Positions 1,530 to 17,171 of a stretch of 64,000 bases of DNA are shown one piece after another. The notes under the pieces are model-generated. The model had not been told where the DNA came from. It made no database searches and was given only the letters and a program-made list of their open reading frames with translations. Source of the stretch: Pseudooceanicola algae (GTDB lineage: Bacteria > Pseudomonadota > Alphaproteobacteria > Rhodobacterales > Rhodobacteraceae); the NCBI RefSeq assembly GCF_003590145.2, contig NZ_CP060437.1, positions 1-64,000 of the forward strand, read 5' to 3'. A program made the position numbers and the translations under genes. Numbering within the stretch: the stretch's first letter is position 1; each line of letters begins with the position of its first letter.

Positions 1530-1582
1530 GGCCATTCTTTCCGTGTCAGGGCAGCGCGTTCAGGATCCTCGGTGGCCGGGCG

Positions 1583-2581
1583 TCAAAGCGACGCGCCGAC
1601 CATCCGCGCGACATCGACCAGCCGGTTAGCATAGCCGAATTCGTTGTCGTACCAGGCATAGATCTTCACCTGGGTGCCGTTGATCACCATGGTCGAGGGC
1701 GCATCGATGATCGAGGAGCGCGGATCATTGGTATAATCCGTGGACACCAACGGGCGGGTTTCATAGCCCAAGATGCCTTTCAGCGGGCCTTCGGCAGCGG
1801 ATTTGAACAGGGCGTTGACCTCTTCTGCGGTGGTTTCGCGATCGACCTCGAAAACGCAATCGGTCAGCGAGGCATTCAGCAGCGGCACGCGCACCGCGTG
1901 ACCGTTCAGTCGCCCGGTCAATTCGGGATAGATCAGCGTGATGGCCGTAGCCGATCCGGTGGTGGTCGGGATCAGCGAATTCAGGGCCGAGCGCGCCCGG
2001 CGCAGGTCCTTGGCGGGGCGGTCGACGATGGTCTGGGTGTTGGTCACGTCGTGGATCGTGGTGATCGAGCCGTGCTTGATGCCAAGCGCCTCATGGATCA
2101 CCTTGACCACCGGCGCGAGGCAGTTCGTCGTGCAGGAGGCCGCCGTGACGATCCTGTGCCGGTCAGGATCATAGGTGTCGTCGTTGACGCCGTAGACGAT
2201 ATTCGCCGTCGGCCCATCCTTGACCGGCGCCGAGATCACGACCTTCTTCACCCCGGCGTCGAAATAGGGCGCAAGCTTGGCTTCGGTCTTGTAGACGCCG
2301 GTGCAGTCGATCACCACGTCGACGCCATCCAACGGCAGGGCCGACAGGTCGCGGGTGCCGATGAAGGGCAGGCGGGTGCCGTCGATGGTCACGCTGTCGG
2401 CATCATGGGCAAATTCGGCCGACCAGCGACCATGCACCGTGTCGAATTCCAGCAGATGCGCGTGCATTTCCGGATCGCCAACCGCGTCGTTGATCCAGGC
2501 GATCTTCGCGCCGCCTTCCAGCAGCGGTTTCAGGGCAAGCTTGCCCATGCGGCCAAGGCCATTCAGTGCGTATGTGGTCAT
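1583..2581 (-). CDS. gap: Glyceraldehyde-3-phosphate dehydrogenase of the ArsJ arsenate-resistance pathway
   Basis: A 332-residue GAPDH with an N-terminal Rossmann fold (NGLGRMGK, residues 7-14), catalytic Cys150 in SCTTNC, the partner histidine near residue 177 ([10 protein letters not shown]) and the C-terminal [11 protein letters not shown]. Here it probably makes 1-arseno-3-phosphoglycerate for ArsJ rather than serving glycolysis. That is inferred from its place between arsR-arsC and arsJ and from known gapdh-arsJ pairs. It overlaps the arsR-arsC stop by four bases (2578-2581), which suggests coupled translation. Confidence 0.93.
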
Positions 2582-3426
2582 GCCGGGGTCTCGGTCTTGC
2601 TGCGGCCGATCTCGTCGACGGCGGATTGAAGGGCGATCCGGTCAAGGCTTTCGACCGGCAGGGCCACGAAGGACAGGATGCGATTGCGCAGCGCGCCGTA
2701 GGCCTGCTGGAAGGCGAGGCTTTTCTCGGCATCGGTGCCCTCGACCTTGACCGGATCCACCATGCCCCAGTGGCCGCTGACCGGCTGGCCTTCCCAGGCG
2801 GGGCATTCCTCGTTCGCGGATTGGTTGCAGACGGTAAAGACGAAATCAAGCTCGGGCGCGTCCTGGCCCGAAAATTCGCTGACGTTCTTGGACCGCAAAG
2901 GGGAAATGTCATGCCCCTTGTCTTCCAGCACCTTCAGCGCAAAGGGATTGAGCTCGGAAAAGGGGCGGGTCCCGGCGGAATGGACGTTGAACCGATCCCC
3001 GGCGAGGTCGCGCAGGATGGATTCGGCAAAGATCGAGCGCGCGGAATTGCCCACGCAGATGAACAGGACGTTGTACTTGCGATCTGGGGATGTGGGTTCG
3101 GACATGGTGGCAGCTCCTGCGCTGGACGGCATGCAAAGGTTTGGACGACCACGGCAACAATCGAGGAACAGATAATCGAACATCTGTTGCACGCGTGTCA
3201 TTTGAACGGAGTAGAGAAGCGACGTTCCGGCCCGTTCCTGGCTGACCAGCCCGGCACGTTGAAGCGCTGCCAGATAGGCCGACATCGTGCTGGCCTTGAC
3301 GTCGAGCGCGGCACAAAGCTCTCCCGCCGGGACACGGTCGGGAAAGCGGCGCATCAACAGGCGAAACACGGCAAGGCGTTGCGGGTGGCCCAGGGTGGCC
3401 AGTTGGTCGGGAATCTCTTTTTCCAT
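2578..3426 (-). CDS. arsR-arsC: ArsR-ArsC fusion: arsenic-responsive repressor joined to a low-molecular-weight arsenate reductase
   Basis: A 282-residue two-domain protein. Residues 1-90 form an ArsR/SmtB winged helix ([17 protein letters not shown]; recognition region [13 protein letters not shown]). Cysteines 90, 91 and 98 follow directly, a spacing like the C-terminal As(III) site known from Acidithiobacillus ferrooxidans ArsR. Residues 117-275 form an LMW-phosphatase-like arsenate reductase with the P-loop C124-VGNSAR-S, the [12 protein letters not shown] segment and the [10 protein letters not shown] loop. One polypeptide would thus sense As(III) and make it from As(V). It heads the leftward operon, and a perfect palindrome overlaps its start. 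No Shine-Dalgarno sequence is visible before the ATG. Confidence 0.92.
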
Positions 3427-3927: not shown

Positions 3928-4680
3928 TCACCCGTTTCCCGCGCACAGGAAGCTGTCGAGCGCGGCGATCGCGTCTTCGGACGCGAGGTTGGCAGAGGCT
4001 TCGCCCAGAACCTCGGACAGCGCGGCGCGGGTGCGGGGACCCGGCAGGCCGTCAACCGGACCGGGGTCGGCCCCTGCCGCGATCAGCAGGCGTTGGAATG
4101 TGACGCCGGGGGTGCCTTCTTCTATTGTCGCCAGACCGCAGGGCGCAGGTGGCACGAGGTCGGAGTCGTCCGCGACTTCGAGGTCTTCGGCCACTTCGGT
4201 CGTTTCAGTCTGAGGCGGGGGTGACAGGGCCCAGCCATCGGTGGACGGCGCCACCACCGCAGGCGGCGAAGGCATTTCCGCAGAGGTGGCGACGCTTTCA
4301 GGCGCGGTAAAGCACAGCCCCATCTGTTCCGCCACGCGCAGGGCAGGCTCGGGCGGGGTGCCTTCTGTCGTCTGGGCGCAGGTCTTGGCAGCGGAATCGC
4401 ACTGGACGGATATTTCCCAGGCAGGTTCCGGTGCCGGATCGCTTACCGAGGCCTCGCCATTGGCATAGATCTGGTAAGCATAGCCGCCAATGCGCCCCTC
4501 TTGCCACAAGCCGGGGAAGCGGGGCGAGGGCACGTCGGCAAAGCCCGTCACCACGTCCGTCGCCCCGGGAAAGATGCGGTCATACCCGGCGCCGACGCAG
4601 GGCGCGGCCTGGGCCTGCGTCGCAGCCAATGCGCCCGACAGCAAGCCACCGCCAAGCCATGCCAGCCGACGCGCGGTCAT
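3928..4680 (-). CDS. Secreted protein with C-terminal peptidoglycan-binding-like domain, last gene of the glycan operon
   Basis: 250 residues with a signal peptide (MTARRLAWLGGGLLSGALAA, cleavage near AQA-AP). Residues about 40-110 form a small Cys-containing module (GGYAYQIYANG then VQCDSAAKTC) that also occurs near the N-terminus of the outer-membrane protein at 15615-17171. A proline/acid-rich linker follows. Residues about 195-235 (GVTFQRLLIAAGADPGPVDG then PGPRTRAAL) resemble a PG_binding_1 three-helix fold. The ATG overlaps the DUF3131 stop, so it is translationally coupled. A periplasmic, wall-associated role in glycan assembly or anchoring is inferred. No catalytic residues are visible. 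Confidence 0.7.
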   Translation of the reverse strand: MTARRLAWLGGGLLSGALAATQAQAAPCVGAGYDRIFPGATDVVTGFADVPSPRFPGLWQEGRIGGYAYQIYANGEASVSDPAPEPAWEISVQCDSAAKTCAQTTEGTPPEPALRVAEQMGLCFTAPESVATSAEMPSPPAVVAPSTDGWALSPPPQTETTEVAEDLEVADDSDLVPPAPCGLATIEEGTPGVTFQRLLIAAGADPGPVDGLPGPRTRAALSEVLGEASANLASEDAIAALDSFLCAGNG

Positions 4681-6041
4681 TGGTTGGCCCGGCCAAGCGG
4701 CCCATGCGCGCGGAAGGCCAGGGCGGCCAGCACCACGGCGTTGGTATTCGTGGTGACCGAACTGTTCACCGACCCGTCGACCTCGTAAAGCCCTTCGGGC
4801 CAGCCCGTCTTTTCATCGCCAAGCGGAGCAAGGGCGTCGATCAGCGTCTGGGTATATTCCGTGCCGAACAGGGCGTACCAGGCGAAGGCCGTCTTGACGG
4901 TGACCGTGCGCTTGCTGTCCAGACGTTCGCCGCGGAATGTCATCACGGCCCAGGGCGCGCCGCCACCCCAGATCGTGGAATAGACGAAATAGGGCGCCTC
5001 ATCGAGATGGCTTTCACTGACTGCCGTCAGGGTGCCGGTTTCGCGATACCGTTCCTCCTGCGCCTTGTAGATCGCGGTGGCGAAGCGGTGGGACCGCGCG
5101 TCAAAGCCGAACTCGAGCCCGTCAAAGACATAGGGCTCGGAAACCGTGAAGGCCGGGGTCACGTTGCGGTGCAGGCGATCGTCGACCGGGATCGGCTGGC
5201 CCATGACCTCTTCCACCATCATGTGATCTTCGGCACGGTAGGCGCGATACATGTCGTAGCCGTAAAGCATCATGGCCTTGGCGGCATATTGGCCATAGCC
5301 AAGGCGCCCTTCCTGGTCGCGGCGCAATTCACCATCGACCATGTTGCCGCCGATCAACTGGCCGTCCTCGACCATCTCATCGACGTCCCAGTATTCCAGC
5401 ACCGAGGCAACCTGGCCCGCCAGATCGGGATAGGCCTGTTCGACATGTGACAGGGCACCGATCATGCGGGCGATGTCCAGAGCCGACCAGCCAAGGCCGC
5501 GTTCGACCGGCTGATTGGTGTAATCGACAAGGGCGCCGGTCTGCACGTTATAGGCCTTGTTCGGCAGGATGTCGTCGAACAGGCGCATGGTCGCCAGCGT
5601 GTCCAGCGCCCGGCTGATCCGTGCCGTCGCCTCGGCCTTTTCGATCAGTCCCAGCAGATCGGCCGAGATTACCGCGATGAAATAGGACCCGGTTTCCCAC
5701 ATGGTGGTCGACGGGTATTGATCCGCGGAATTGACCAGCCCGGTATCGGCGTTGGTGTTGTTCTCGAAATAGGTCCAGGCGATGCGTGCATAGGCCAGAT
5801 CCTCGGGGGTGCTGTCCCCGGTGATGGCCAGCGGCAGCGGGTCGATATCTTCGAAGACGGACATGACCGAAAGGGTCTCCTGCGGTTGATCCGGAAGGCC
5901 GTGCGGCGCGGGTTGTCCCGCCTGCGGCGTGGTCTTCGAAATGGCCCCTTCCAGCGAGATCACCAGACCCAGCCCACAGAACAGGGCGACCAGAAAGATG
6001 ATGCCGCTACGGGCCTTGATCAGGTTGTCACGAAAGCTCAT
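4677..6041 (-). CDS. DUF3131 protein B, membrane-anchored, of the glycan operon
   Basis: 454 residues with one N-terminal membrane segment (about residues 13-32) that anchors a periplasmic domain. The body matches DUF3131 as I remember it: AYARIAWTYFENNTNADTGL, YPSTTMWETGSYFIA, a GWSALDIARMIGAL helix, GYGQYAAKAMMLYGYD and a late WYALFGTEYTQ helix. The alternating helices and conserved acids suggest an alpha/alpha barrel that could act on or bind glycans. The enzymatic activity is unknown. It is a paralog of the protein at 9009-10811. The ATG follows an AAGGTGA box and lies two bases after the glycosyltransferase stop. Confidence 0.82.
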   Translation of the reverse strand: MSFRDNLIKARSGIIFLVALFCGLGLVISLEGAISKTTPQAGQPAPHGLPDQPQETLSVMSVFEDIDPLPLAITGDSTPEDLAYARIAWTYFENNTNADTGLVNSADQYPSTTMWETGSYFIAVISADLLGLIEKAEATARISRALDTLATMRLFDDILPNKAYNVQTGALVDYTNQPVERGLGWSALDIARMIGALSHVEQAYPDLAGQVASVLEYWDVDEMVEDGQLIGGNMVDGELRRDQEGRLGYGQYAAKAMMLYGYDMYRAYRAEDHMMVEEVMGQPIPVDDRLHRNVTPAFTVSEPYVFDGLEFGFDARSHRFATAIYKAQEERYRETGTLTAVSESHLDEAPYFVYSTIWGGGAPWAVMTFRGERLDSKRTVTVKTAFAWYALFGTEYTQTLIDALAPLGDEKTGWPEGLYEVDGSVNSSVTTNTNAVVLAALAFRAHGPLGRANQ

Positions 6042-6043
6042 GT

Positions 6044-7870
6044 CTATTCACCTTCTTTGCTTGCATCGGGTTGCCACAGGGCGGCGCTGATCATCCCGCT
6101 CATGGCAAAGCAGTTGTTCAGGCCCCAGAGAATATTGGCCACGACGCCACTGGCCGAGTGGCTTGTGCCGCCGATCAGCAGCGCGCCGATGGCCCAGGCC
6201 GCCCCTCCGAGCGTCAGCGCGATGACGGCGATCTGCGGTCGGACAAGGGTCAGGAAATTGCCCGCCTGCCGGGTCTTGGGGGTCACCTTGAACGAGATCT
6301 TTTCGCCCCGCGCCACGGTCATGATCGCCTTCAGGCCAAGCGGAAAGAACGACAGGTAGCTGGCCTTGGACGCATATCCCGCGATGCCCCAGGTGCCGGC
6401 CATGATGGCCAGTTCCAGCGTGACGAGGAAGGGGATCAGATGCAGGAAGAAGTCCGCCGAATAGGCCGTGACCGGAGAGACGGCCGTGAACAGGTAGATG
6501 GCCGGGGCCAGAAGGAAGATCACGTTCCACAGCGGCGCGAGGTAGGAATAGAAGGTGGTCCCGTACATCAGGCGCTGGCCAAGGGTCAGCCCCTTGCGGA
6601 AGATCGGGTTGTCATGGATCAGGATATCCAGACTGCCGCCCGCATATTTGAACCGCTGCACCGTCCAGGTCAGAAGATCCTGCGGCGACAGCATCTTGCT
6701 TTCCACGATCGGGTGCATCTTGGATTTCCAGCCGCGTTCGGCATCCGAATGCAGCACGATGGAGGTATAGATGTCTTCGGACACGTGGAAGCGGTAGGGG
6801 GTCAGGATCTCGGTCGCGGCGGCCTCGGTCTTGATCGCTTCCATCAGTTCCGTCGCGACCTCGCGTTCCCGCGAAGAGACGGTGACGACCTCTTCGACGG
6901 CCCAGGTGCGTTCCTGCACCTTGGAGCCGAAACTGCGCAAGGCAGCCTCCATCACCGCTTCGCGCCGGTGAATTGACCCGGCCCCGCAGCAGAACGAGGC
7001 ATTCACCCAGTTCCGCCGCCGCTGAATGATGTCGTAGAACATCTTGGGATCGCTTACGAAGGGATCATCGCCCAGGGTGACCGGCCCGATGACCTTTTCG
7101 ACGCCGCGCCCGATGATCTCTCCGGTTCGCCCAAACCGTCTGGCCAGCCGCGCGGGCAGGCGTTCGCCTTCGGGCAGGTCATAGAACCATTGCGGCGTCT
7201 GTACCCAGGCCATCCGGGGGTCGCGGAAATAGCCAAGGGTATGTTCAAGAAGCGTGGGGAAGGGCCGCGTATCCGCATCGCAGATCACCAGGAAATCGCC
7301 GTAGGTTTCCTCCATCGCGTGGCGCAGGTTGCCGGCCTTGAAGCCTTCGTTGGACAAGCGCGAGATATAGTTCGCGCCCTCGTCTTCGGTCACCGCCCGC
7401 ATTTCGGGGCGGCGGCCATCATCCAGCACGTGAACCCGGATCGCGATGGGATGGGGATAGGTGATGCGCTTGGCATCGCGGATACCCAGGCGGACCAGTT
7501 CGGGGTCTTCGTTGTAGGTGGCGAACATCACATCGACGGTCAGGATCCGGTCGCCTTCGGGGTGTTTGGGATCAACGTCCCGCAACAGGGCGGGCGGTTC
7601 TTCCAACTTGATCGGCTCGTCTTTCCAAAGGTTGAAGACGAACAGGATCATCCCGATGAAGGCACAGGTTTCCGCCACTGCCAGCGGCACGGCGAACCAC
7701 ATGGCATCGGGGTTCAGGGAATGGGACCAGCGCCACAGGATGTACCAGCCCCCGACCACCAGCGCGACCGTGGCCAGGAATTGCCACACCCCTTCGCGCA
7801 CGGGGCTGTAGGGCAGCGGTTCGGGCGGCGTCCGATGTTCGTACTTCAGGAAATAGTCGTCTTCGATCAT
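6044..7870 (-). CDS. Membrane family 2 glycosyltransferase, BcsA/cellulose-synthase-like, without PilZ domain
   Basis: 608 residues. Two N-terminal membrane helices (about 28-48 and 57-80) precede a cytosolic GT-A domain. It has VMFATYNED (114-122), LDDG (149-152), the DxD motif CDAD (197-200), a TED-like SEDIYTS (364-370) and QRFKY (405-409) in place of QxxRW. Further C-terminal helices (about 430-600) would form the channel. This layout is that of processive synthases such as BcsA, which polymerise and extrude a beta-glycan. The C-terminus ends soon after the last helix, so the c-di-GMP-binding PilZ domain of BcsA is missing. No bcsB, bcsC or bcsZ is nearby, so the product need not be cellulose. 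Coupled by overlap to the acyltransferase. Confidence 0.88.
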   Translation of the reverse strand: MIEDDYFLKYEHRTPPEPLPYSPVREGVWQFLATVALVVGGWYILWRWSHSLNPDAMWFAVPLAVAETCAFIGMILFVFNLWKDEPIKLEEPPALLRDVDPKHPEGDRILTVDVMFATYNEDPELVRLGIRDAKRITYPHPIAIRVHVLDDGRRPEMRAVTEDEGANYISRLSNEGFKAGNLRHAMEETYGDFLVICDADTRPFPTLLEHTLGYFRDPRMAWVQTPQWFYDLPEGERLPARLARRFGRTGEIIGRGVEKVIGPVTLGDDPFVSDPKMFYDIIQRRRNWVNASFCCGAGSIHRREAVMEAALRSFGSKVQERTWAVEEVVTVSSREREVATELMEAIKTEAAATEILTPYRFHVSEDIYTSIVLHSDAERGWKSKMHPIVESKMLSPQDLLTWTVQRFKYAGGSLDILIHDNPIFRKGLTLGQRLMYGTTFYSYLAPLWNVIFLLAPAIYLFTAVSPVTAYSADFFLHLIPFLVTLELAIMAGTWGIAGYASKASYLSFFPLGLKAIMTVARGEKISFKVTPKTRQAGNFLTLVRPQIAVIALTLGGAAWAIGALLIGGTSHSASGVVANILWGLNNCFAMSGMISAALWQPDASKEGE

Positions 7871-9012
7871 GAACCCGCCCTGCTGGATTTACCGGCTTCC
7901 CAGGGCAATGGGCCCAGGCCGATGGTCCAGGCCAATACACCGACCCGCGACAGGCCGACCGTGAAAAGGAACGCGCCGGGCAGGGCGACGGCGTAGCGCA
8001 GCACGACGATGGCCGTGGGCGACATCACCTCGTAAAAGCCGGATGTGAACAGCGCGATGTCGTAAAGGTCGATGACTGCCGGGTGCACCAGGTAGACGCC
8101 GAAGGTGTACTTGGCCCAGTTCGACCAGCGCGGCGACCAGTCGAGGTATTGCCCCCCGATGAAGATCAGGAAGATGCAGATCGGCATCAGGAAGTGACCG
8201 TAGAAGTCCCATCCGCTGCGCACGCCCCAGTTGCCGGTCTGATAGGCCACGACAAAGAAGGGCAGCGTGGCGACATAGGCCAGCGCGGCGAAATACAGAC
8301 CGCCACGCCGCAACAGGCGGCTTTCGCCGCGCGGGATGCCGTCTTTCCAAAGGCCATACATGGCAAAGGCCGCGAACCCGTAACCCACGTAGCCAAAGAT
8401 CTTGAGCGCCCGGATGATATAGCCCCGCAGCTCGGGGTCGATACCCAGCCCCCAGACCATGGCCTGCGTGTTGTTCATGATCCCCAGGGTCAGAAACAGC
8501 GTCAGGCCAAGGATCGGGTATCGCGTCGCCCCCCGCATCAGCGGATAGAAGAGGAACAGCGCGAACAGCGTCGGCAGGAAGTGCATGTGGTACTGGACAT
8601 CGCCCAGCAGGAAATACCCGACCCAGCTTTGCACCTGGGTCACCTGCGTCCAGATGTAGTCGGTGTACCCGAATGCCGCGGCCTTGAGCAGGCGGAAGAA
8701 GGCGTAGAACACGACCCAGAAGGCAAAGGGGATCAGCAGGCGCTTGGCCTGGGTGCCGATGGCCTGCCCATAGCCCGGCAGTTTCCGGTCGACCCGTATC
8801 GCCATCAGGAACAACGAGAAGAAGAAGAACATCTCGGAACCCGAGAATTCCCCGATCGAGCGCAGCAGGATCGGGACAAGGCGTTCATCGGGCGTGGCGG
8901 CGGCAAAAGGCTTGCCGCCGAAATCGGTGGTGGAATGGATCAGCACGACGCCAACCGCGGCGACCACGCGGTTGGCGTCGAACCAGACCAGACGGGACTT
9001 GGCTGCGCTCAT
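7867..9012 (-). CDS. Acyltransferase family 3 membrane protein (OpgC-like glycan acyltransferase)
   Basis: 381 residues with about ten hydrophobic helices. It opens with the family signature RLVWFDANRVVAAVGVVLIH, containing the histidine usual in acyltransferase 3 proteins. HMHFLPTLFALFLFYP lies near residue 142 and GVYLVHPAVIDL near residue 313. Such proteins carry acetyl or succinyl groups across the membrane onto glycans; OpgC, which succinylates osmoregulated glucans, is one example. Lying between a DUF3131 gene and the glycosyltransferase with overlaps on both sides, it probably decorates the polymer made by the synthase. The acyl group cannot be told from sequence. Confidence 0.85.
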   Translation of the reverse strand: MSAAKSRLVWFDANRVVAAVGVVLIHSTTDFGGKPFAAATPDERLVPILLRSIGEFSGSEMFFFFSLFLMAIRVDRKLPGYGQAIGTQAKRLLIPFAFWVVFYAFFRLLKAAAFGYTDYIWTQVTQVQSWVGYFLLGDVQYHMHFLPTLFALFLFYPLMRGATRYPILGLTLFLTLGIMNNTQAMVWGLGIDPELRGYIIRALKIFGYVGYGFAAFAMYGLWKDGIPRGESRLLRRGGLYFAALAYVATLPFFVVAYQTGNWGVRSGWDFYGHFLMPICIFLIFIGGQYLDWSPRWSNWAKYTFGVYLVHPAVIDLYDIALFTSGFYEVMSPTAIVVLRYAVALPGAFLFTVGLSRVGVLAWTIGLGPLPWEAGKSSRAGS

Positions 9013-10811
9013 GGCTGGGCGGTTCCCGGTGCGCTACAGGATTGCGGCAGCACCTTGCGCGGGCTCGGCGGGGCCAGATTGTGCTTTTGCGGGCGACAAT
9101 CGGTTGCGGCGGTCTCGCCTTCGGTCGGAACAGCCCGGCAATACAGGAATTCCTCCAGCGGGATGACCGGCGGAATCTGATCCTGCGCACAGGAGCAGCA
9201 CTGGACGACCTCTTCCATCAGGCGGGGATGGCATTTGTTGTCCCGCAGGTCGGTCCCCGCATAGGCGGTGTTCCAGTACTGTGTGTTGTCGCTGACCTGT
9301 TGCAGGATCGGCCCCTGAACCTTGTAAAGCAGCGAGGCCAGGATGATGCCGTTGTTGTTGGCGGTCTGCAGCGGAATGTAGCCGTTGCCGTTTTCGTACA
9401 GCCCTTCGTAGAAACCGGCGTCCGGCTCATAGAGGTCGGCGACGCTTTCAAACAGCAGATCCGTGTAATCCGTGTCCCACAGCGCCCAGAGACCGATGGC
9501 CGCCTTGGCCGCGATGGCGGCGCGGTCGGGCTGGTATTCGCCCGTCGGGTCCAGCGTGTTCCAGGGATAGCCGTCGGCAAAGATCGAATCGTAGACGAAG
9601 TAGGGTTTGCCGTTGACCTGGTGTTCGGACCGGGCCGTGATGATACCGGTCTGTTCATAGCGCCGCTGCTGCACCAGATAGATCCGGTTGGCGAATTCCG
9701 CGCGCCACCCATGCGAGGCGGTCAGCCCGTCATTGGTCCGGTCGGTCGGCAGATCCCACCCCATTTCCAGACCATCAAGGATGTAACCTTCGGTCAGGAC
9801 ATAGTTCTGGTTCTTGAAGATCCGCGGATCCCGCCCGTCGTAGGGCACCTTCACGTCGTAGATCATGGTGTAGTTGACCGGCTCGGGCGACAGCGCCCGC
9901 GCCACGTCGAAGCCCCAGAGCGCAAAGCCCTTGGCGGCATATTCCTCGTACCCCAGACGGCCTTCCTGAACGTAGCGGGTTTCGCCGTCCCCTTGGGTGA
10001 AGGCGCCGAACATGCGCCCGTCTTCGTTCACCAGGTTGCAGAAGTTCCAGCGCATCGGGATGTTGTCGACGCTGTTGGCCAGGTGCGGGTGCCGCTCCTT
10101 CAGGATGCGCAGCCAGACGAGCATCCGGCCGATATCCAGCGCGGACATGCCGACTTCGCCGGGTTCGTTGGCATAGTTCACCTTCGCGCCCGTTTTGGTG
10201 TTGTAGACCTTGTTCGGGGCTTCGCCGCGATAAAGGTCGAGATTGCGCAGGGTATTGGTCAACTGGGTCGCCCGCGTATCGAATTCCCGCTTGTCGATCA
10301 CGCACAGCTCATAGGCCGCGACAAGCGCGCTGATATAGGATGCGGTGTCCCAAAGGGTCGTTGACGGGTAGGAGCCGACGGCATTCACCAACCCCGTATC
10401 GGGCTGGAAATACTTGTCAAAATAGGACCAGGCGGTGCGCGCCATCTGGTATTCGCGGTCGGTCAGGGGGGCGCTGCGTCCGAAATGGGCGCTGCTGATG
10501 TTCTTCGGACCGCGGTTGCATTCCCCCATCCGCACGCGGTTCGTCTCATCGAATTCGATCATCAGTGGCGATTCAGACCAGATCGTGACGCTGTTGTATT
10601 CGGCTCCGTTCAGGGTGACGTTGTCGATCGTCACCGACTGCGGCGCCGCCTCGACGTTGTCATCCTGCGCATTGAGCGCAGCGGGCAGGGCCAGCAAGCC
10701 GATAAGCATGCCACTTGCCACTGTTCCGGCGCTGTTTGCCTTCAAGATCATCGTCTTCATCATCGCACTCCGAACACGGTACATGGACAGGTTACATATC
10801 TTGTCGCTCAT
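9009..10811 (-). CDS. DUF3131 protein A, secreted, with Cys-rich C-terminal tail
   Basis: 600 residues. Signal peptide core GMLIGLLALPAALNA ends near residue 48, with an unusually long N-region if the first ATG is used. That ATG overlaps the stop of the RsbW-like gene, and the internal ATGs at residues 17 and 18 are alternatives. The DUF3131 body (about 115-520) repeats the landmarks of its paralog at 4677-6041: AWSYFDKYFQPDTGL, YPSTTLWDTASYISA, GMSALDIGRMLVWL, GYEEYAAKGFALWGFD, LWALWDTDYTDLLFE. The last 75 residues are extra and hold seven cysteines, including a CCSC cluster. No active-site claim can be made. Confidence 0.82.
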   Translation of the reverse strand: MSDKICNLSMYRVRSAMMKTMILKANSAGTVASGMLIGLLALPAALNAQDDNVEAAPQSVTIDNVTLNGAEYNSVTIWSESPLMIEFDETNRVRMGECNRGPKNISSAHFGRSAPLTDREYQMARTAWSYFDKYFQPDTGLVNAVGSYPSTTLWDTASYISALVAAYELCVIDKREFDTRATQLTNTLRNLDLYRGEAPNKVYNTKTGAKVNYANEPGEVGMSALDIGRMLVWLRILKERHPHLANSVDNIPMRWNFCNLVNEDGRMFGAFTQGDGETRYVQEGRLGYEEYAAKGFALWGFDVARALSPEPVNYTMIYDVKVPYDGRDPRIFKNQNYVLTEGYILDGLEMGWDLPTDRTNDGLTASHGWRAEFANRIYLVQQRRYEQTGIITARSEHQVNGKPYFVYDSIFADGYPWNTLDPTGEYQPDRAAIAAKAAIGLWALWDTDYTDLLFESVADLYEPDAGFYEGLYENGNGYIPLQTANNNGIILASLLYKVQGPILQQVSDNTQYWNTAYAGTDLRDNKCHPRLMEEVVQCCSCAQDQIPPVIPLEEFLYCRAVPTEGETAATDCRPQKHNLAPPSPRKVLPQSCSAPGTAQP

Positions 10812-11221
10812 TCTCGCCCCCTGAAGGCGAGTCTCAGCCGGTTTCTGTCGCCTTCCGCGCCATAATCAACACGGTCTGCGCATTCGAGTATCAGCCCCAG
10901 CCCACGGCCACCTTCCGCAAGAAGGTCGACTTCGGACAGCGCCGCCGCCTTTTCCCGAAGGTCGAAGGCCGCCGCACCGGGCGGATCGAAGATTTCGATC
11001 ACGATGTCCTCGCCGACCGTCGCCAGCGCGATATCGACCTGGGCGTCCGGGTCCGTAGAGCGGGCATGCAGCACCAGATTGGTCAGCGCCTCGCTGACGC
11101 AGATGTTGAAGCGAAACTGCACATCCATCGCAAGGTGACCTTCCACCTGCCCCTTGAGCGCGAGGACCATGGGATCCACCGCATCGAGCCTCTTGGGCAT
11201 ATGAAAGATCTGCGGTTTCAC
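10808..11221 (-). CDS. RsbW-like anti-sigma/switch-protein serine kinase
   Basis: 137 residues with a HATPase_c fold. An N-box-like helix, NICVSEALTNLVLHA, lies at about residues 39-53; EIFDPPGAA is the G1-type loop and GGRGLGLI the G2 loop. In partner-switching systems this kinase phosphorylates a STAS antagonist and binds a sigma factor or another effector. Its gene overlaps the STAS gene upstream and the DUF3131 gene downstream by four bases each, fixing it inside the glycan operon. No sigma-factor gene is in the window, so its second partner may be elsewhere or may be a non-sigma target. Confidence 0.85.
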   Translation of the reverse strand: MKPQIFHMPKRLDAVDPMVLALKGQVEGHLAMDVQFRFNICVSEALTNLVLHARSTDPDAQVDIALATVGEDIVIEIFDPPGAAAFDLREKAAALSEVDLLAEGGRGLGLILECADRVDYGAEGDRNRLRLAFRGRE

Positions 11222-11562
11222 GCTTTTTCGCTCAGGGCTTGGATCGCGCTGGCCTCGTCACGGTAGACCGTGAACACCCGGTCCATGCGGCAGATCCGGA
11301 ACAATTGCTCGACCTCGGCCGACAACCCACAGACGACCAGGTCCCCACGATGGCCGATCTTCTTCAGCACCCCGGTCAGGGCGCCAAGGCCCGAGGAATC
11401 GAGGAACGTCGTTTCCTTGAAGTCGATCACCAGACGCCCGGCGCCGGCTTCGACCAGGGCGCCTACTTCTTCCTTGAAGGTCTTGGCATTGATCGCCGTC
11501 AGGCGTTCGACGCCGGGGCGCACCACGGTAATGTCATGGGAATGCGGAGTAGAATGGATCAT
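11218..11562 (-). CDS. STAS-domain anti-sigma factor antagonist
   Basis: 114 residues covering one STAS domain (RsbV/SpoIIAA type). The motif FLDSSGLGALTG at about residues 53-64 contains the serine pair in which RsbW-type kinases phosphorylate one residue. Dephosphorylation would be done by the PP2C phosphatase encoded just upstream (four-base gap). The STAS protein would then compete for the RsbW-like kinase encoded just downstream. The three-gene order phosphatase, STAS, kinase is that of a complete partner switch. Confidence 0.88.
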   Translation of the reverse strand: MIHSTPHSHDITVVRPGVERLTAINAKTFKEEVGALVEAGAGRLVIDFKETTFLDSSGLGALTGVLKKIGHRGDLVVCGLSAEVEQLFRICRMDRVFTVYRDEASAIQALSEKA

Positions 11563-11566
11563 GTCG

Positions 11567-12742
11567 TCAGGTCCTTTTCAAAGCCACTACGGTCAGGTCG
11601 TCTTCAAGCGCGAGTCCACCGCGCCATTCATCCAGGGCCTGAAAGATGGTATCGGGAATATCGTCTATGCGGGCACCATGGGCCGCGGCGACGAGGTGCT
11701 GCAAGCGTTCCGAGCCGAAGGGGATCTTGCCGGCGCTCTCTGCTTCTGGCGCCGCGTCCGAACAGATCACCATGGTGCCACCATGTTCGAAATCCATGCT
11801 GTTGTTTTCATAACTTGCGTCAAAGAACATGCCCACCGGGAACCCGCCGTCCCCGACAGGCCGGGTCCGCCCGTCCGGCGCCGTGTAGAAGGGCGACGGA
11901 TAGGCTGCGTGGCAATAGGTCAGCTCGCCGGTTTCGCTATCCAGAACCCCGCAGAACATTGTGAAATAATCGTCGTTCTCCGAGACGCTGAAGCGCGCGT
12001 TCAGATCCGCGACCAGCGCGGCAGGGTCCGGCGGCGCCCCGTTCCCGAGGACGGTATTGGCAAAATAATCCGGTGTGATCAGATGCCCGATCGCGACCGA
12101 CAGAAGCGAGGCGTGGATCCCGTGGCCCGAAACATCGACCGTGTAGAAACCAAGCCGGGTCTCGTCCAGCGGCACACAGCCGTACATATCGCCCGAGATG
12201 ACCGCTGAGGGCACAAAGACCGAGGCAAAGCGCGTCCCCAAGATATCCTTGTGAATATTGGGCAGCAGTTGGCGCTGCGCATTGGCAGCGGCGCGCAGAT
12301 CCTGATTGATCCGGTCGTTGGTCTCTTTCAGGATGCGGTGCTGCTCGGCCAGTTCCCGTGCATGATGGATCAGACGCGTCGCTGCCCGGACCCGCGCCCG
12401 CAGGGCCACCGGATCGTGCCCTTTGCTCAGGAAATCATCCGCCCCGGCTTCCAGTGCCTGACCCCGCACATCGCCTTCTTCGCTGCCGGTAATGAGGATG
12501 ATATGGACGTAATGATCCATAGCGAGCGCCCGAACCGCCTTGGTCAGATCCAGACCATCCATGTTTGGCATGTTGTAGTCGCTGATCACGATCTGCGCAT
12601 CCGTGCGCTTCACCAGGTCCAGCGCCTGAAGGCCGTCTTCGGCCGGCAACGCCTTGTAGCCCAGCTTTTCCACCACCCGCACCAGATACATGCGCTGCAC
12701 CAGGTTATCTTCGGCAATTATGATTTCCAGCGGCTTCGTCAC
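11567..12742 (-). CDS. Response regulator with PP2C (RsbU/SpoIIE-type) phosphatase output
   Basis: About 391 residues. Residues 5-120 form a receiver domain with acidic pocket ED (11-12), phospho-acceptor Asp55 (VISDYNMPNMDG) and the LSKG lysine. A short coiled coil follows, then a PP2C phosphatase (about 165-390) with SGDMYG, DVSGHG and EDDLTVVALK metal-site motifs. Phosphorylation of the receiver should gate dephosphorylation of the adjacent STAS protein. The frame opens at a TTG (12757), but the GTG at 12742 has a GGAG box nine bases upstream, so I use it. This is the first gene of the glycan operon and faces the H-NOX/hybrid-kinase pair, its most obvious upstream signal. Confidence 0.88.
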   Translation of the reverse strand: MTKPLEIIIAEDNLVQRMYLVRVVEKLGYKALPAEDGLQALDLVKRTDAQIVISDYNMPNMDGLDLTKAVRALAMDHYVHIILITGSEEGDVRGQALEAGADDFLSKGHDPVALRARVRAATRLIHHARELAEQHRILKETNDRINQDLRAAANAQRQLLPNIHKDILGTRFASVFVPSAVISGDMYGCVPLDETRLGFYTVDVSGHGIHASLLSVAIGHLITPDYFANTVLGNGAPPDPAALVADLNARFSVSENDDYFTMFCGVLDSETGELTYCHAAYPSPFYTAPDGRTRPVGDGGFPVGMFFDASYENNSMDFEHGGTMVICSDAAPEAESAGKIPFGSERLQHLVAAAHGARIDDIPDTIFQALDEWRGGLALEDDLTVVALKRT

Positions 12743-13234
12743 GGCACCAGGCTCCAATCCGCACAGGCCCTTGGACCCCCGTCGCGCAGAGGCCGAATTG
12801 TCCCGCCCGACCGGGGGCGGGGCACGGACATGCTCGAAGGGCTCGTTTTCGATTGGAGCACAATTAGTCTACCTATTTCAACCAGTACAAAGCCGATGTT
12901 CTTGCAATCTTTCTACTTCAGTCCGCCCTTTTTCGAAATGACCCTGAAGGTGAGTCCCGACTATCTTGTGCGCAGGGACGTAGCCGAAGGGATATGGCGG
13001 GTATCCGCAAGTTCCTGGCACCGCCCCTAATGGCTCTCTTCTTTGAAACTCTTTTGGCGGTATAAAGAAGCCTCTCGACAGATCGCGATTGTTGGCTCTT
13101 GAACGCTTGAAACCGGTCCTTTGTGACAAGGTCGAACCGGGCGGATACAGGAACCGCGATGATCTAAGTCCGATGACCCGTCGAACAGCGCCATGCGCTG
13201 CGGGAACCGTAGATACTGCAGAAAAGGTGCGATC
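12743..13234. other. Divergent intergenic region between the glycan operon and the H-NOX/kinase operon
   Basis: About 490 bases with no convincing coding frame. It must carry the leftward promoter of the partner-switch/glycan operon and the rightward promoter of the H-NOX operon. Bases around 12855-12920 are AT-richer than the flanks. An imperfect dyad, CCTTTG-TGA-CAAGG, lies at about 13117-13130. A GAAAAGGTG ribosome-binding region precedes the H-NOX ATG. I see no FNR/NNR-type TTGAT-N4-ATCAA box. Nothing else is recognised. Confidence 0.5.
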
Positions 13235-13777
13235 ATGAAGGGTGTGATCTTTGTTGAACTGATCAAGATGGCCGAGGGCGCCTTTGGCGAAGACACGGTC
13301 GACATGGTCATCGAGAAGGCCGATCTGGACAATGACGGGGCGTTCACGGCCGTGGGCAACTATCCCTGTTCGGAACTGGTCAAGATCGTCATGGCATTCA
13401 GCGACCATTCCGGGCTGAGCCCCGAAGTGCTGCAGCGCAAGTTCGGTCACTGGATGCTGGGCTTCTTCGTCGACAATTACCCGGAATTCTTTGCCGACAA
13501 GGATTCGGCCTTTGCCTTGCTGGAATCCGTCGATCAGGAAATTCATGTCGAAGTTAAGAAGCTGTATCCCGATGCGGACCTGCCCCGTTTCGACACCAAC
13601 CGTCCGGGTCCCGGCCGGCTGGAAATGGTCTATTCGTCGGCCAATCGGCTCGACGCCTTCTGTCATGGCCTGATCGAAGCCTGCATGGAGCGCTTCGAAG
13701 AGGAAGGCGATGTCGTCCGAGCGCCCCATCCGACCGAGCAGAACGCGATAGCTTTTGACATTACATTGAAAAAATGA
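13235..13777 (+). CDS. H-NOX (heme NO/O2-binding) sensor protein
   Basis: 180 residues, the usual length of a stand-alone bacterial H-NOX domain. It opens with KGVIFVELIKMAEGAFGEDT (family pattern: MKG.IF..L...V...FG...). The proximal heme ligand is His104 in QEIHVEVKKLYPDADLPRF, and the late strand LEMVYSSANRLDAF with GLIEA follows. The family YxSxR heme-propionate motif reads Y133-S-S135-A-N137, with Arg one place later. Stand-alone H-NOX proteins next to kinases sense nitric oxide and modulate autophosphorylation. An upstream in-frame ATG exists at 13193, but the ATG at 13235 has the GAAAAGGTG box and matches the family N-terminus. The kinase gene starts ten bases after the stop. Confidence 0.9.
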   Translation: MKGVIFVELIKMAEGAFGEDTVDMVIEKADLDNDGAFTAVGNYPCSELVKIVMAFSDHSGLSPEVLQRKFGHWMLGFFVDNYPEFFADKDSAFALLESVDQEIHVEVKKLYPDADLPRFDTNRPGPGRLEMVYSSANRLDAFCHGLIEACMERFEEEGDVVRAPHPTEQNAIAFDITLKK

Positions 13778-13787
13778 GTGTCTAGCC

Positions 13788-15557
13788 ATGATGACTGATA
13801 CAACCGATGATCGAGTATCCCGCCGTCGATACGACCGTGAGTGCCAGGCCCGGAAAGAAGCCGAGGCGCTTCTGGAGCAGAAAAGCCGCGCGTTGTTCAA
13901 GGCGAACGATGAACTGTCCCAGAATGCGGCGCGGCTTGAACAGGCGGTGCAGGAACGCACGGCCGAACTGAGCCTTGCGCTGGAACGGGCCGAGGCCGCC
14001 TCGACCGCACGCAGTCGGTTCATCGCCACCATGAGCCACGAGATCCGAACGCCCCTGGGCGGGTTGCTCGGCATGATCGACCTGCTGTCGATGGACGAAG
14101 TGGACCCCGGCAAGCAGGAACTGCTGGATTACGCCAATACCGCCGGCACCGGCCTGAGCCGGATCGTCAACGATGTGCTCGACTTTTCGAAGATGGAGGC
14201 AGGCGTTTTCCTGTTCGAACAGGAAAATGTCGATATCCGCGCGCTGATCGAAAGCATCCGCATCCTGCTTGCGACCCATGAACATGGCACGAACCGCCGG
14301 ATCCTGGCCCGGATCGACGACAGCGTGCCCAAGCTTTTCCTTGGCGATGCCACGCGGATGCGTCAGATCATCTCCAACCTCGTGAACAATGCGCTGCGCT
14401 ATTCGACGGACGGGCCGATCATCGTCCGGGCCGGCGCCAAGGCTCACCCCGATGGTGTCCTGTTGCGAGTCGAAGTCGAGGATTTCGGCGTCGGCATCGC
14501 CGAAGAGAATATCGACAACCTGTTCAAGGACTTCACGCAGATCGCCAACCCGCTGACCGCCGCTGCGCAGGGCACGGGGCTGGGGCTGGCGATTTGCAAG
14601 CGCATCGTACTTGGCATGGGTGGGGTCATTTCTGTCGACAGCCGGTTGAACGACGGGTCGACCTTCTGGTTCGAGGTCCCGGTTCAGCCCGTGTCGAACC
14701 CGGATGCCCAAGGCTCCAATGGCAGCAAGGCCGCCCATGGCCTGCCGCCGGAAGGGATCGTCGGCCGCCGTGTATTGCTGGCCGAAGACAACCTTATCAA
14801 CCAGAAGCTGCTGCTGACCTATCTGGACCGCATGGGGCTGCATGTCGATCTGGCCGAAAACGGCCGCATCGCGTTGGAAAAATTCGCGCCGGGGAAATAC
14901 GATCTGGTGCTGATGGACGTAGCCATGCCGGAAATGGACGGGCTGGAAGCAACCCGTCGCATTCGGGACAAATGGTCCGACGCGCAGATTCCCCCGATGC
15001 TGGCCCTGACCGCCCATGTCATGGACGCGGTCGAGGAAGAGGCCAAGCTGGTCGGTATCGACCGCATCCTGTCCAAGCCGATTCCCTACGAGGATCTCAA
15101 ACTGGCCATCGAAATCGAAATCGCCGCGGCATCCGGGAAAAACGCACCAACGTCAGCGCCTGTTGCATCCGTCCGGCCTGATGCGCCGGAGCCGACCCCC
15201 GAAACGGGCACCGAAGCTAGGACCTTTTTCGATCTCATGGCGCCGACAGCCGCGGAAAGCCTTCTGGACATTTTCGGGCACGACGGACTGATCGACTTTG
15301 CCGGGAAGTTCATCACCGATTCAAACAGCCGCATCGAACAGCTTCTGGCTGCCGAACGTTCCGGCGACGTCAAGACCGTGACCGATCAGGCCCATTCGCT
15401 GAAGGGGGCTGCACTGGCCCTTGGGTTCGCGGATCTGGCCGAATGGGCGCGTCGCATCGAACATGGTGAAACGCATCTGGACAAATGGACGGTCGCAGAG
15501 ACCGCCGCCAACTTCCAGGCGCGTCTGGACTATCTGGACAAGGTGCTGAAGAACTGA
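13788..15557 (+). CDS. H-NOX-associated soluble hybrid histidine kinase (HisKA-HATPase-REC-Hpt)
   Basis: 589 residues without membrane segments. An N-terminal coiled coil (about 20-75) leads to HisKA with His84 (ATMSHEIRTPLGG), an ATPase domain (N-box NLVNNAL near 198-204, DFGVGI, GTGLGL), a receiver with Asp377 (LVLMDVAMPEMDG) and a C-terminal Hpt with His536 (AHSLKGAAL). With no sensory domain of its own, it depends on the H-NOX protein encoded ten bases upstream, as in known H-NOX-associated kinases. The His-Asp-His chain would hand phosphate to a separate receiver. The response-regulator phosphatase across the intergenic region is the best candidate, but that link is inference. Confidence 0.9.
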   Translation: MMTDTTDDRVSRRRYDRECQARKEAEALLEQKSRALFKANDELSQNAARLEQAVQERTAELSLALERAEAASTARSRFIATMSHEIRTPLGGLLGMIDLLSMDEVDPGKQELLDYANTAGTGLSRIVNDVLDFSKMEAGVFLFEQENVDIRALIESIRILLATHEHGTNRRILARIDDSVPKLFLGDATRMRQIISNLVNNALRYSTDGPIIVRAGAKAHPDGVLLRVEVEDFGVGIAEENIDNLFKDFTQIANPLTAAAQGTGLGLAICKRIVLGMGGVISVDSRLNDGSTFWFEVPVQPVSNPDAQGSNGSKAAHGLPPEGIVGRRVLLAEDNLINQKLLLTYLDRMGLHVDLAENGRIALEKFAPGKYDLVLMDVAMPEMDGLEATRRIRDKWSDAQIPPMLALTAHVMDAVEEEAKLVGIDRILSKPIPYEDLKLAIEIEIAAASGKNAPTSAPVASVRPDAPEPTPETGTEARTFFDLMAPTAAESLLDIFGHDGLIDFAGKFITDSNSRIEQLLAAERSGDVKTVTDQAHSLKGAALALGFADLAEWARRIEHGETHLDKWTVAETAANFQARLDYLDKVLKN

Positions 15558-15614: not shown

Positions 15615-17171
15615 TCAGAAGGTGAACCGGTAGGTCAGGGACACATTGCCGCCCGTCAGGCCCGGTCCGGGGCTGCTGCCTTCGTTCCAGGGCCAGCGAT
15701 TGTTGCTGTAATTGCTGTAGCTCACCAGCCAGTCGTCGTTGATCCGGTAGCTGGCGGTATAGCTGTAGTCAGGCTCGTAGGTATCCTGACCACCGGGTGT
15801 GTAGAAATACGCGGCCATGTTGACCCGCAGCTTCTTTGTCACGGCATAGCCGCAGGACAGGTTGAGGCTTTGGTCGGTAGGGTCGGGCAGGCCGATACTG
15901 GCGACACAGGGTATCGTCTTGTCGTTCGGCAGCGGGATCGCCGGCAATTTGTAGCTGCCGCGGAAATCACCGCCGAACAGCCCGTCGACCGGGTTGCCGC
16001 CATCGGTGAACCGCGCCGAGTAATTGCTGTAGCCGAGGGTGATCTTGTCCGTCATGCGGTAGACGAAGGCATAGGTATAATCCGGGTCCCATGGATCCTG
16101 CTCTGACGGAACGAGGTAGCGGATCAGGGACAGGCGGACCGTGACTTTTTCGTGCAGCGCCGCGCTGCAGCCAAGGCTGACCCGCGCCTTGGCGTCCCGG
16201 CGTTCATGGGCGTTCCGGGTCAGGAACCCCAGCCCCGAGGTCGTCGAGACCGAGCAGTTCACCCTGTACTTGTCCACGAGGCGCTCCTGGCGGACTGCCT
16301 CGGGTTGGACGGGTTCGACAGGATCGGGGGTCTTGGCAGGCGCGACCGGCGCCGGCTTTCTTGCCGCGCGTTTCGGCTGCGCGACCGCGACGACCTCCGG
16401 CTTCATCGGTTCCGTCGGCTGGGAACAATCCGTGGGAACAAAGGGCTCTGCTTCGGAGCACACGGGCCCCACGTCGGCGTCCGCCAGAGCGGCCTCCACC
16501 GAAGCGACAAGGGTGGCGCCGGCGGCGACCTGATCGGCGGTCTCGTCCGGCGCGGGGGAGGCCTCGGCCTCGCTTTCCTCTGCGACCAACTCCGGCGCGG
16601 GCTGAGTTTCCGGCGCGACGGGGGCGGGCTCATCCACCACCGGCTCTGCTTCGACAAGAGCGGATGGCGGTGCGGTTCCCGCAAGGATCCATTCCGAAAG
16701 GTAGCGGGCCACGTTGTCCAGATCCATGTCCTGCGGCGCATCGGGGCGTTCGCCCAGGCCCACGGGAACCTCGAAATCCGTCCCGTCCGTTTTGCTGACC
16801 AGGCATGAAACAGCAGCTTCACATACAAGATCGGCCCGGACCTGCGAGCGTTCCGAATCGTCCATGATCTTGGCGGACCCGTCAGGGTAGATTACGTAGA
16901 CCCATTGCCCCAATGTGCCACGCTGGTAGAGCGAGGAATGCAGCGCACTCGGCAGGTCAAGGATGACCTCCTGCGCGTCGGGTGTCGCGAGTTCGGTCGT
17001 ATTTACAAAGTCTTCGCCAAGCGCTTCGGCTGGGGTCTCCGGCGCAGCGACTTGCGCGGTGGCCCCGGATGCGAAACAGCCCGCAACCATGGCGAGACAG
17101 ACCGCGCGACGCGCGACAGGAGAGGGCGGTGTGACGAGGCGCTTACGCATGATGCTACGATAATCCGGCAA
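15615..17171 (-). CDS. Outer-membrane beta-barrel-like protein sharing a module with the glycan operon
   Basis: 518 residues with a signal peptide ending near GATAQ. Residues about 75-130 (GQWVYVIYPDGSAKI then VCEAAVSCLVSKTDGT) match a module in the secreted protein at 3928-4680. A long Pro/Ala/Glu linker follows (about 165-300). The last 210 residues are aromatic-rich beta strands in two similar halves (DPDYTYAFVYRMTDKITLGY against EPDYSYTASYRINDDWLVSY), ending in TYRFTF as barrels usually do. The start is a TTG five bases after AGGAAG; the later ATG at 17150 lacks a box. It is convergent with the kinase gene. A role in export or surface display of the glycan is inferred from the shared module only. 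Confidence 0.65.
   Translation of the reverse strand: MPDYRSIMRKRLVTPPSPVARRAVCLAMVAGCFASGATAQVAAPETPAEALGEDFVNTTELATPDAQEVILDLPSALHSSLYQRGTLGQWVYVIYPDGSAKIMDDSERSQVRADLVCEAAVSCLVSKTDGTDFEVPVGLGERPDAPQDMDLDNVARYLSEWILAGTAPPSALVEAEPVVDEPAPVAPETQPAPELVAEESEAEASPAPDETADQVAAGATLVASVEAALADADVGPVCSEAEPFVPTDCSQPTEPMKPEVVAVAQPKRAARKPAPVAPAKTPDPVEPVQPEAVRQERLVDKYRVNCSVSTTSGLGFLTRNAHERRDAKARVSLGCSAALHEKVTVRLSLIRYLVPSEQDPWDPDYTYAFVYRMTDKITLGYSNYSARFTDGGNPVDGLFGGDFRGSYKLPAIPLPNDKTIPCVASIGLPDPTDQSLNLSCGYAVTKKLRVNMAAYFYTPGGQDTYEPDYSYTASYRINDDWLVSYSNYSNNRWPWNEGSSPGPGLTGGNVSLTYRFTF

Follow-up and report, generated by a model that had tools for sequence, protein, structure and literature searches.

The window analysed here comprises the first 64 kb (64,000 nucleotides) of a 202,410-base contig (NZ_CP060437.1) of Pseudooceanicola algae. 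It contained a locus in which the genes for an H-NOX sensor and a hybrid histidine kinase face an operon of eight genes on the other strand, where a response regulator with PP2C output (REC-PP2C), a STAS protein and an RsbW-like kinase stand in front of genes probably for glycan synthesis. The places, domains and coordinates that the initial annotation had given for these ten genes were confirmed by open reading frame calls and Pfam. A further gene, at 15615-17171, lies outside the range of that annotation and was missed there. The features are as follows.

13235-13777, plus strand: H-NOX sensor, 180 amino acids (HNOB, 120.6 bits against a cut-off of 25.5; the scan began at 13193)
13788-15557, plus strand: hybrid kinase HisKA-HATPase-REC-Hpt, 589 amino acids (Pfam; no sensor domain matched)
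12743-13234, no strand: divergent intergenic region between operon and H-NOX gene (layout divergent in 13 of 15 H-NOX loci)
11567-12742, minus strand: response regulator with PP2C (SpoIIE-type) output, 391 amino acids (Response_reg 83.8 bits, SpoIIE 111.6 bits; scan from 12757)
11218-11562, minus strand: STAS protein, 114 amino acids (STAS, 65.6 bits)
10808-11221, minus strand: RsbW-like serine kinase, 137 amino acids (HATPase_c_2, 57.1 bits)
9009-10811, minus strand: DUF3131 protein a, probably secreted, predicted fold of the (alpha/alpha)6 type (PF11329, 402.6 bits; model resembles beta-1,2-glucanases)
7867-9012, minus strand: membrane acyltransferase, Acyl_transf_3 (PF01757, 78.5 bits)
6044-7870, minus strand: GT2 synthase related to BcsA (Glycos_transf_2, 47.1 bits; BcsA chains matched in PDB)
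4677-6041, minus strand: DUF3131 protein b (PF11329, 410.7 bits)
3928-4680, minus strand: secreted protein with a weak peptidoglycan-binding match (PG_binding_1, 15.8 bits, under the cut-off of 23)
15615-17171, minus strand: predicted outer-membrane beta-barrel with an N-terminal domain (model, Foldseek and homologues; start codon uncertain)

The operon order was REC-PP2C, STAS, RsbW-like, DUF3131a, acyltransferase, GT2, DUF3131b and the small secreted protein. The eight members had been named rightly, but the acyltransferase had been placed before both DUF3131 genes; one of these lies 5' of the acyltransferase gene and the other 3' of GT2. The junctions were as tight as claimed, five of the seven being 4-base overlaps and the other two leaving 4 and 2 bases between the genes. 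The REC-PP2C gene starts with GTG. These genes and their order, and likewise the relay residues and the linkage of H-NOX and kinase to the operon given below, are established at the level of sequence. No FNR/Nnr or CtrA-like box was found in the divergent region of the window, where the sole match was NsrR-like with three mismatches. Across 14 divergent regions no FNR/Nnr, CtrA or NsrR-like site was consistent, and there were a few single matches with one to three mismatches.

Conserved linkage of the H-NOX pair and the operon

The operon was searched in a sample of 394 genomes of the same family, representing 393 genera. PF11329 was matched in 89 of them, and operon surroundings were read in those 35 genomes whose DUF3131 matches reached at least 300 bits, the window's genome included; genomes with weaker DUF3131 matches were left out and loci at contig ends may be missed. 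An operon with the same relative order (type A) was present in 12 of the 394 genomes (G000, which is the genome of the window, G007, G015, G097, G123, G127, G155, G211, G243, G258, G307 and G345). The last gene was not recognised in G015, a kinase was inserted in G258, and G155 had two REC-PP2C genes. The operon of G123 (L117) was decaying: acyltransferase and GT2 were not found and the DUF3131 frames were broken. Despite this decay, the genome still has its H-NOX/kinase pair at another place (L038). The other 23 of the 35 genomes (type B) carried DUF3131 genes, often with GT2 and acyltransferase nearby, and no full switch in front.

Window-type H-NOX proteins, searched with the window protein at E <= 1e-15, were found in 40 of the 394 genomes. 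They occurred in 9 of the 12 operon genomes and in 31 of the 382 others (Fisher p = 8.3e-8; table 9, 3, 31, 351; the Fisher tests ignore phylogeny), and p was 6.2e-7 without the window. In six genomes (G000, G007, G097, G127, G211, G307) the H-NOX gene and an Hpt-bearing hybrid kinase gene stood beside the operon.

A second set comprised at least 80 loci, and 46 among the matches listed hold REC-PP2C, STAS, DUF3131a, acyltransferase, GT2 and DUF3131b. A plasmid locus of Paracoccus seriniphilus was added, giving 47 operon loci, in which three Pacificibacter marinus strains are counted separately. With at least nine operon loci in common, the sets lack independence, and their counts were never added up. 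An RsbW gene could be identified in 46 of the 47 loci, and a homologue of the last gene stood at the operon end in 39. H-NOX and kinase were beside the operon in 15 of the 47 loci, in 13 genera (Mameliella, Tropicimonas, Octadecabacter, Pacificibacter, Actibacterium, Loktanella, Pelagimonas, Sulfitobacter, Monaibacterium, Yoonia, Celeribacter, Pseudoprimorskyibacter and Silicimonas). The pair was divergent and upstream in 13 of the 15, and downstream on the same strand in two (L127, L161). It means that the linkage survives rearrangement. The link drawn between the two halves was supported by this adjacency across genomes, and a chance neighbourhood was rejected on the basis of adjacency across loci and the Fisher test. 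The idea that H-NOX is universal for the operon was rejected as well: 31 of 46 operon loci had no H-NOX in the stretch fetched.

Outside the family, GT2 relatives (E <= 1e-90) were found in 15 of 398 Pseudomonadota genomes. PP2C, STAS and RsbW homologues lay beside GT2 in 5 of the 11 GT2 loci there (L264-L268), and an H-NOX match was found in none of the 11.

Proposed phosphorelay, partner switch and sensor cassettes

The kinase gene had been described as a sensorless hybrid kinase with terminal Hpt, and this agrees with Pfam, which matched HisKA, HATPase_c, REC and Hpt and no sensor domain. Like HahK, it is a HisKA-HATPase-REC protein beside hnoX without its own sensor domain. The proposed relay residues His84, Asp377 and His536 were right, being kept in all 27 aligned kinases. 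In 15 relatives the H-NOX and kinase genes were separated by -11 to 15 bases. For a kinase that has a receiver of its own, an Hpt is the step required to reach the receiver of REC-PP2C. An Hpt was present in the gene beside H-NOX in 9 of 9 operon genomes and in 3 of 31 others (G056, G230, G296; p = 8e-7), that is, Hpt presence tracks operon presence. Hpt domains were called with a profile made from the Hpt regions of kinases linked to H-NOX. Because this profile could miss distant Hpt domains, 14 of the 31 operon-less genomes were also scanned with Pfam, and the result agreed (three with Hpt, 11 without), the Hpt of G230 scoring 23.4 bits, just below the cut-off of 24.6. The 11 Hpt-negative genes scanned were eight kinases and three GGDEF-EAL proteins; the other 17 of the 31 were called negative by profile and length (450-531 residues in frame). 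In two Hpt-less loci that were scanned, a gene for a flavin mononucleotide (FMN)-dependent dehydrogenase adjoins the H-NOX/kinase pair (L039:10372-11535, L205:8068-9276).

The receiver Asp55 of the partner switch was correctly assigned. Of 56 aligned REC-PP2C rows, 54 keep it, and both rows without it come from a single locus taken twice, with the second of two tandem genes aligned. Four PP2C Asp positions are kept in all 56 rows. STAS Ser56 is kept in 62 of 62 sequences, and position 57 is Ser in 59 and Thr in three. In the RsbW-like proteins, Glu44, Asn48, Gly105 and Gly107 are kept in 50 of 50 and Asp79 in 48 of 50. A PP2C protein, a STAS protein with the phosphoacceptor Ser and an RsbW-type HATPase are all present, as in RsbU/V/W; serine kinase and phosphatase activity and partner exchange are predicted. 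In L091/L137 (365-2630) two REC-PP2C genes stand in tandem, and the second seems to lack the receiver start, including the phosphoacceptor position.

This switch very probably controls the glycan function. A second reading is that the target of the switch is a distant sigma factor or diguanylate cyclase, its effect on the glycan genes running only through transcription or c-di-GMP. RsbW-type kinases often bind sigma factors, which was counted for that reading. The STAS proteins BgrV and HsbA act on diguanylate cyclases, as the passages cited report (PMC8457831). Against it, no sigma factor and no GGDEF family was found above the cut-off among the 19 proteins of locus and flanks (the rest of the genome was not searched for a cognate sigma factor), the synthase has no PilZ match, and the switch also stands beside GT2 in the five loci outside the family and on two plasmids, of Pantoea and Sphingobium. 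We consider control through a distant sigma factor or cyclase somewhat unlikely.

The operon stayed constant and the sensor was swapped, even within the genus of the window, since most non-H-NOX loci carry a different kinase beside the operon. A histidine kinase was present in 42 of the 47 operon loci (39 by motif and three, L141, L161 and L163, by tblastn) and was not recognised in L119, L137, L145, L147 and L160. The kinases fall in three cassettes, one of them inside the operon. A protein related to the molybdopterin-domain protein of P. seriniphilus was encoded in 11 of the 32 non-H-NOX loci, nine of these with a PAS-type hybrid kinase; the PF00174 match rests on the P. seriniphilus protein, the sole one scanned. 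In 17 of the 32 a kinase gene separated the switch genes from DUF3131a (16 recognised by motif, and L163 by tblastn). L171 had both an internal kinase and the molybdopterin-domain protein, L128 had the H-NOX and molybdopterin-type cassettes together, and four of the 32 had no cassette (L119, L142, L160 and L137, the last cut by a contig end). Hpt matches were also seen at the ends of other kinases: 22.0 bits in the PAS kinase of P. seriniphilus (cut-off 24.6), 28.9 in one internal kinase and 45.2 in a Pantoea kinase. Within the genus, DUF3131a was found in 5 of 22 genomes, with H-NOX in the window and G394 and an internal kinase in G399, G401 and G402. A quick tree built from GT2, DUF3131b and the acyltransferase, with L171 and L161 on long branches, requires three or more changes among the three sensor states (possible minimum two).

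The small molybdopterin-domain protein gene (PF00174 in L118) adjoins the PAS hybrid kinase gene as if it encoded a sensor partner (L118:4257-7272). The protein also occurs in L128, L129, L131-L134, L136, L143, L146, L151, L152, L155, L165, L167 and L171.

Glycan machinery and the predicted barrel

The locus probably makes and exports a sugar polymer. The synthase had been called BcsA-like; the relation to BcsA stood, with PDB matches, and the features of a standard cellulose synthase did not. GT2 scored 221 bits with the CelA model, where 699 are required, and had no PilZ match in Pfam. In place of QxxRW the window protein has QRFKY, and Q(R/K)xKY is found in 63 of 63 sequences. From the CelA score and this motif, an ordinary cellulose synthase was rejected for GT2. 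No BcsB, BcsC or BcsZ family was found among the ten genes.

The sequence of DUF3131a gave no match to solved structures at E <= 1. Its structure model (pLDDT 72.8, pTM 0.72), compared by Foldseek alone, shows the (alpha/alpha)6 fold of beta-1,2-glucanase-like enzymes. Foldseek ranks 1-19 were 11 beta-1,2-glucanase chains, four cyclic glucan synthase chains and four putative glucoamylases, at 10-14% identity; two of the four cyclic glucan synthase chains we take to be such from their Cgs names. The model suggests that DUF3131a is a candidate glucan-handling enzyme.

The last operon protein is secreted, as had been proposed, and its peptidoglycan-binding call is weak, with a score under the cut-off. 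Among its homologues one reaches 23.3 bits for PG_binding_1 and another (L111) had no Pfam match. The N-terminal part of the 15615-17171 product resembles this protein (BLASTP E = 6e-10, one-to-one comparison). Homologues of that product were found in 31 of the 47 operon loci and 11 of the 15 H-NOX loci. Its model has C-terminal strands at low overall confidence (pLDDT 66, pTM 0.43), and the Foldseek matches were mostly outer-membrane channels with low TM-scores, the best listed being 0.55, target-normalised, for KdgM. It is probable from this model that the product is an outer-membrane barrel.

Proposed route from nitric oxide to glycan and related systems

The route of the initial annotation ran from H-NOX through the kinase, REC-PP2C and STAS/RsbW to the glycan machinery. 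It gained comparative support from adjacency, kinase replacement and Hpt tracking; its biochemical steps, the sensing of nitric oxide (NO) among them, are inferred. The genome of the window has four Hpt and four SpoIIE-type matches in total, which was counted in favour of the route. Without NO, the kinase would be active and phosphate would pass from His84 to Asp377, His536 and then Asp55 of REC-PP2C. The activated PP2C would dephosphorylate STAS at Ser56/57, and unphosphorylated STAS would free or activate glycan production, which RsbW would reverse. NO-bound H-NOX would inhibit the kinase, so that NO would lower glycan production. The polymer would come from GT2 and be decorated by the acyltransferase, outside the cytoplasm the DUF3131 proteins may trim it or transfer it, and export may run through the barrel of 15615-17171. 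In other lineages a different kinase would be plugged into the same Asp55. We hold it likely that the kinase feeds the REC-PP2C of the operon, and we favour, with less assurance, the reading of the locus as a polysaccharide synthesis and export operon under partner-switch control with the NO sensor as input module. An inhibitory sign of NO, taken by analogy from HnoX-HahK of Vibrio fischeri, is only slightly favoured. A wider proposal is tentative: one partner-switch/DUF3131 operon may take interchangeable cassettes (H-NOX, molybdopterin-domain protein with PAS kinase, internal kinases) through a universal Hpt-to-receiver socket, and NO may control an undescribed, probably glucan polymer through a synthase without c-di-GMP binding and a new outer-membrane barrel.

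Several observations weigh against this route. At the sensor, the YxSxR motif of the window H-NOX reads YSSAN followed by Arg, so that Asn137 replaces the motif Arg and an Arg stands at 138. This Arg helps to hold the heme through the heme-propionate motif. It is kept in 26 of the 28 aligned copies, a subset of the H-NOX copies collected, the Mameliella protein (L120) being one of the 26, and the window and L199 have Asn, so the NO-sensing step needs caution. The window H-NOX may accordingly be read as a protein with a damaged heme site that no longer senses NO, the locus being constitutive or answering another signal. We regard this as very unlikely, as the proximal heme His104 and Pro117 are intact in the window and kept in all 28 copies, Arg138 is next to the lost position, and the congener G394 keeps the whole arrangement. 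Heme and NO binding are predicted for the window protein, which is a likely NO sensor. Unlike it, the H-NOX of Paracoccus denitrificans is reported without the axial His in the passage cited (PMC5588039). The same source reports that NO stimulates biofilm in P. denitrificans, which is the opposite sign.

Other points of the same kind come from the genomes. The pair lies apart from the operon in G123, G155 (on another contig) and G345, and in G056, G230 and G296 the same H-NOX/Hpt-kinase was present and the operon was not found. Four operon loci (L119, L145, L147, L160) had no recognised kinase in the flanks fetched. Loci with the same sensor group strongly together on the tree, so swaps were few. 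Six of the 11 GT2 loci outside the family had no complete partner switch in the stretches fetched; these belong to one family of small genomes (L269-L274) with GT2 and DUF3131 genes, mostly on short contigs (L273 is 19.9 kb), and L271 had a STAS-like match only. In a mirror-tree comparison the co-divergence of kinase and REC-PP2C reached a modest partial r of 0.45 (no null model), and partials of RsbW and REC-PP2C were as high or higher; such partial correlations are weak evidence. A second REC-PP2C-like match of 31-35% identity, a possible alternative target, was found in 11 of 12 genomes searched (none in G211; the G230 match spans the PP2C part only).

These data bear on the possibility that the main partner of the H-NOX/kinase pair is another regulator, such as the main contig's second REC-PP2C, and that nothing but linkage ties the pair to the operon. 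Three of the 12 genomes with an Hpt-type pair lack the operon, and of these G056 and G296 have a second REC-PP2C-like match and G230 a PP2C-part match. In the genome of the window, a second REC-PP2C (C1:2903333-2904520) lies near a lone Hpt (C1:2904958-2905137). On the other side, the pair stands beside the operon in two placements, Hpt presence tracks the operon, and other kinases occupy the same place in other lineages. Service to another regulator is unlikely in our view, and the operon's REC-PP2C is kept as the likely target. The second REC-PP2C and its stand-alone Hpt on the main contig are possibly an RbaY-like pair.

The initial annotation took the two halves as known merely separately. 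This is corrected by V. fischeri, where the cited passages describe a circuit from H-NOX to the SypF Hpt, SypE and SypA (PMC12369376, PMC8256260). There, as in the proposed route, H-NOX inhibits a receiver-bearing kinase, and an Hpt leads to a phosphatase regulator, a STAS protein and the syp polysaccharide; HnoX inhibits HahK, NO inhibits biofilm via HnoX, and phosphorylated SypE favours biofilm (PMC12369376). According to the same passages, V. fischeri differs in that hnoX-hahK forms its own operon, HahK depends on the Hpt of SypF or LuxU, SypE doubles as serine kinase, and SypG adds transcription control. The syp polymer genes differ from those of the window as well.

The initial annotation named no other bacterium with the combined layout and DUF3131. 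The H-NOX version of this layout was not found published in a literature search that covered few subscription journals; the DUF3131 and partner-switch set was already listed in Klebsiella (PMC12974863), in a passage that assigns no function to DUF3131. Klebsiella block 3b and Salmonella SGI3 share a cellulose-synthase-like enzyme, OpgC, a hybrid kinase, an anti-sigma antagonist and partner-switch genes (PMC12974863, PMC3401170). DUF3131 is named for block 3b (PMC12974863) and is annotated in a Pantoea piersonii plasmid, whose locus has GT2, three DUF3131 genes, OpgC, PP2C, STAS, an ATPase and a PAS-type hybrid kinase. In contrast to the window, these systems have three DUF3131 genes and another gene order, with no H-NOX named in the cited passages or found, and no match was seen between Pantoea OpgC and the acyltransferase of the window. 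Sphingobium RAC03 has GT2, PP2C, STAS, an ATPase, a CHASE3 kinase, a receiver and an Hpt, and DUF3131 is not annotated there.

To our knowledge the Bgr system of Sinorhizobium meliloti, another alphaproteobacterium, has no H-NOX and no DUF3131. Its partner switch controls a mixed-linkage glucan; in the cited passages it acts on the diguanylate cyclase BgrR (PMC8457831). HptB-PA3346 (HsbR)-HsbA of Pseudomonas aeruginosa likewise passes from an Hpt protein to a phosphatase response regulator and a STAS protein (PMC8256260, PMC8457831), but, by these passages, its separate Hpt serves several kinases, the regulator is also a kinase, and the output is FlgM or HsbD. RbaVWY of Rhodobacter capsulatus, in Rhodobacterales, has the same three partner-switch domains; its effects are on viability and the production of gene transfer agents, the rbaY gene is not next to rbaVW, and the word 'glycosyl' is absent from the text (PMC3999984).

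The circuit logic is already known from V. fischeri, and DUF3131/GT2 sets under a partner switch reach beyond the window locus. New are a compact version linked to NO and the exchange of one sensor cassette for another. If the proposed route is true, marine Rhodobacterales gain a self-contained NO-to-polysaccharide circuit in a single locus, and a compact system becomes available to test how the STAS proteins of partner switches act on polysaccharide machinery. The loci also provide a naturally occurring set of sensor exchanges on a single output, and they hint at a role for DUF3131.

Further H-NOX genes were noted. A search for NnrS in the window's genome gave no match, and the control likewise matched nowhere. 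A second, weaker H-NOX (E = 1.3e-22), of a type common in the family, lies on the main contig (G000:C1:1392413-1392880). Three window-type H-NOX genes (L247, L248, L046) adjoin a gene for a GGDEF-EAL protein, and four (L036, L206, L216, L217) adjoin large PAS/GAF hybrid kinases.

Beside the locus, at 264-3426 on the minus strand of the window, genes for an MFS transporter, GAPDH and a fusion of helix-turn-helix and low-molecular-weight phosphatase domains form a set that resembles an arsenate-resistance operon of the ArsJ/Gap type.

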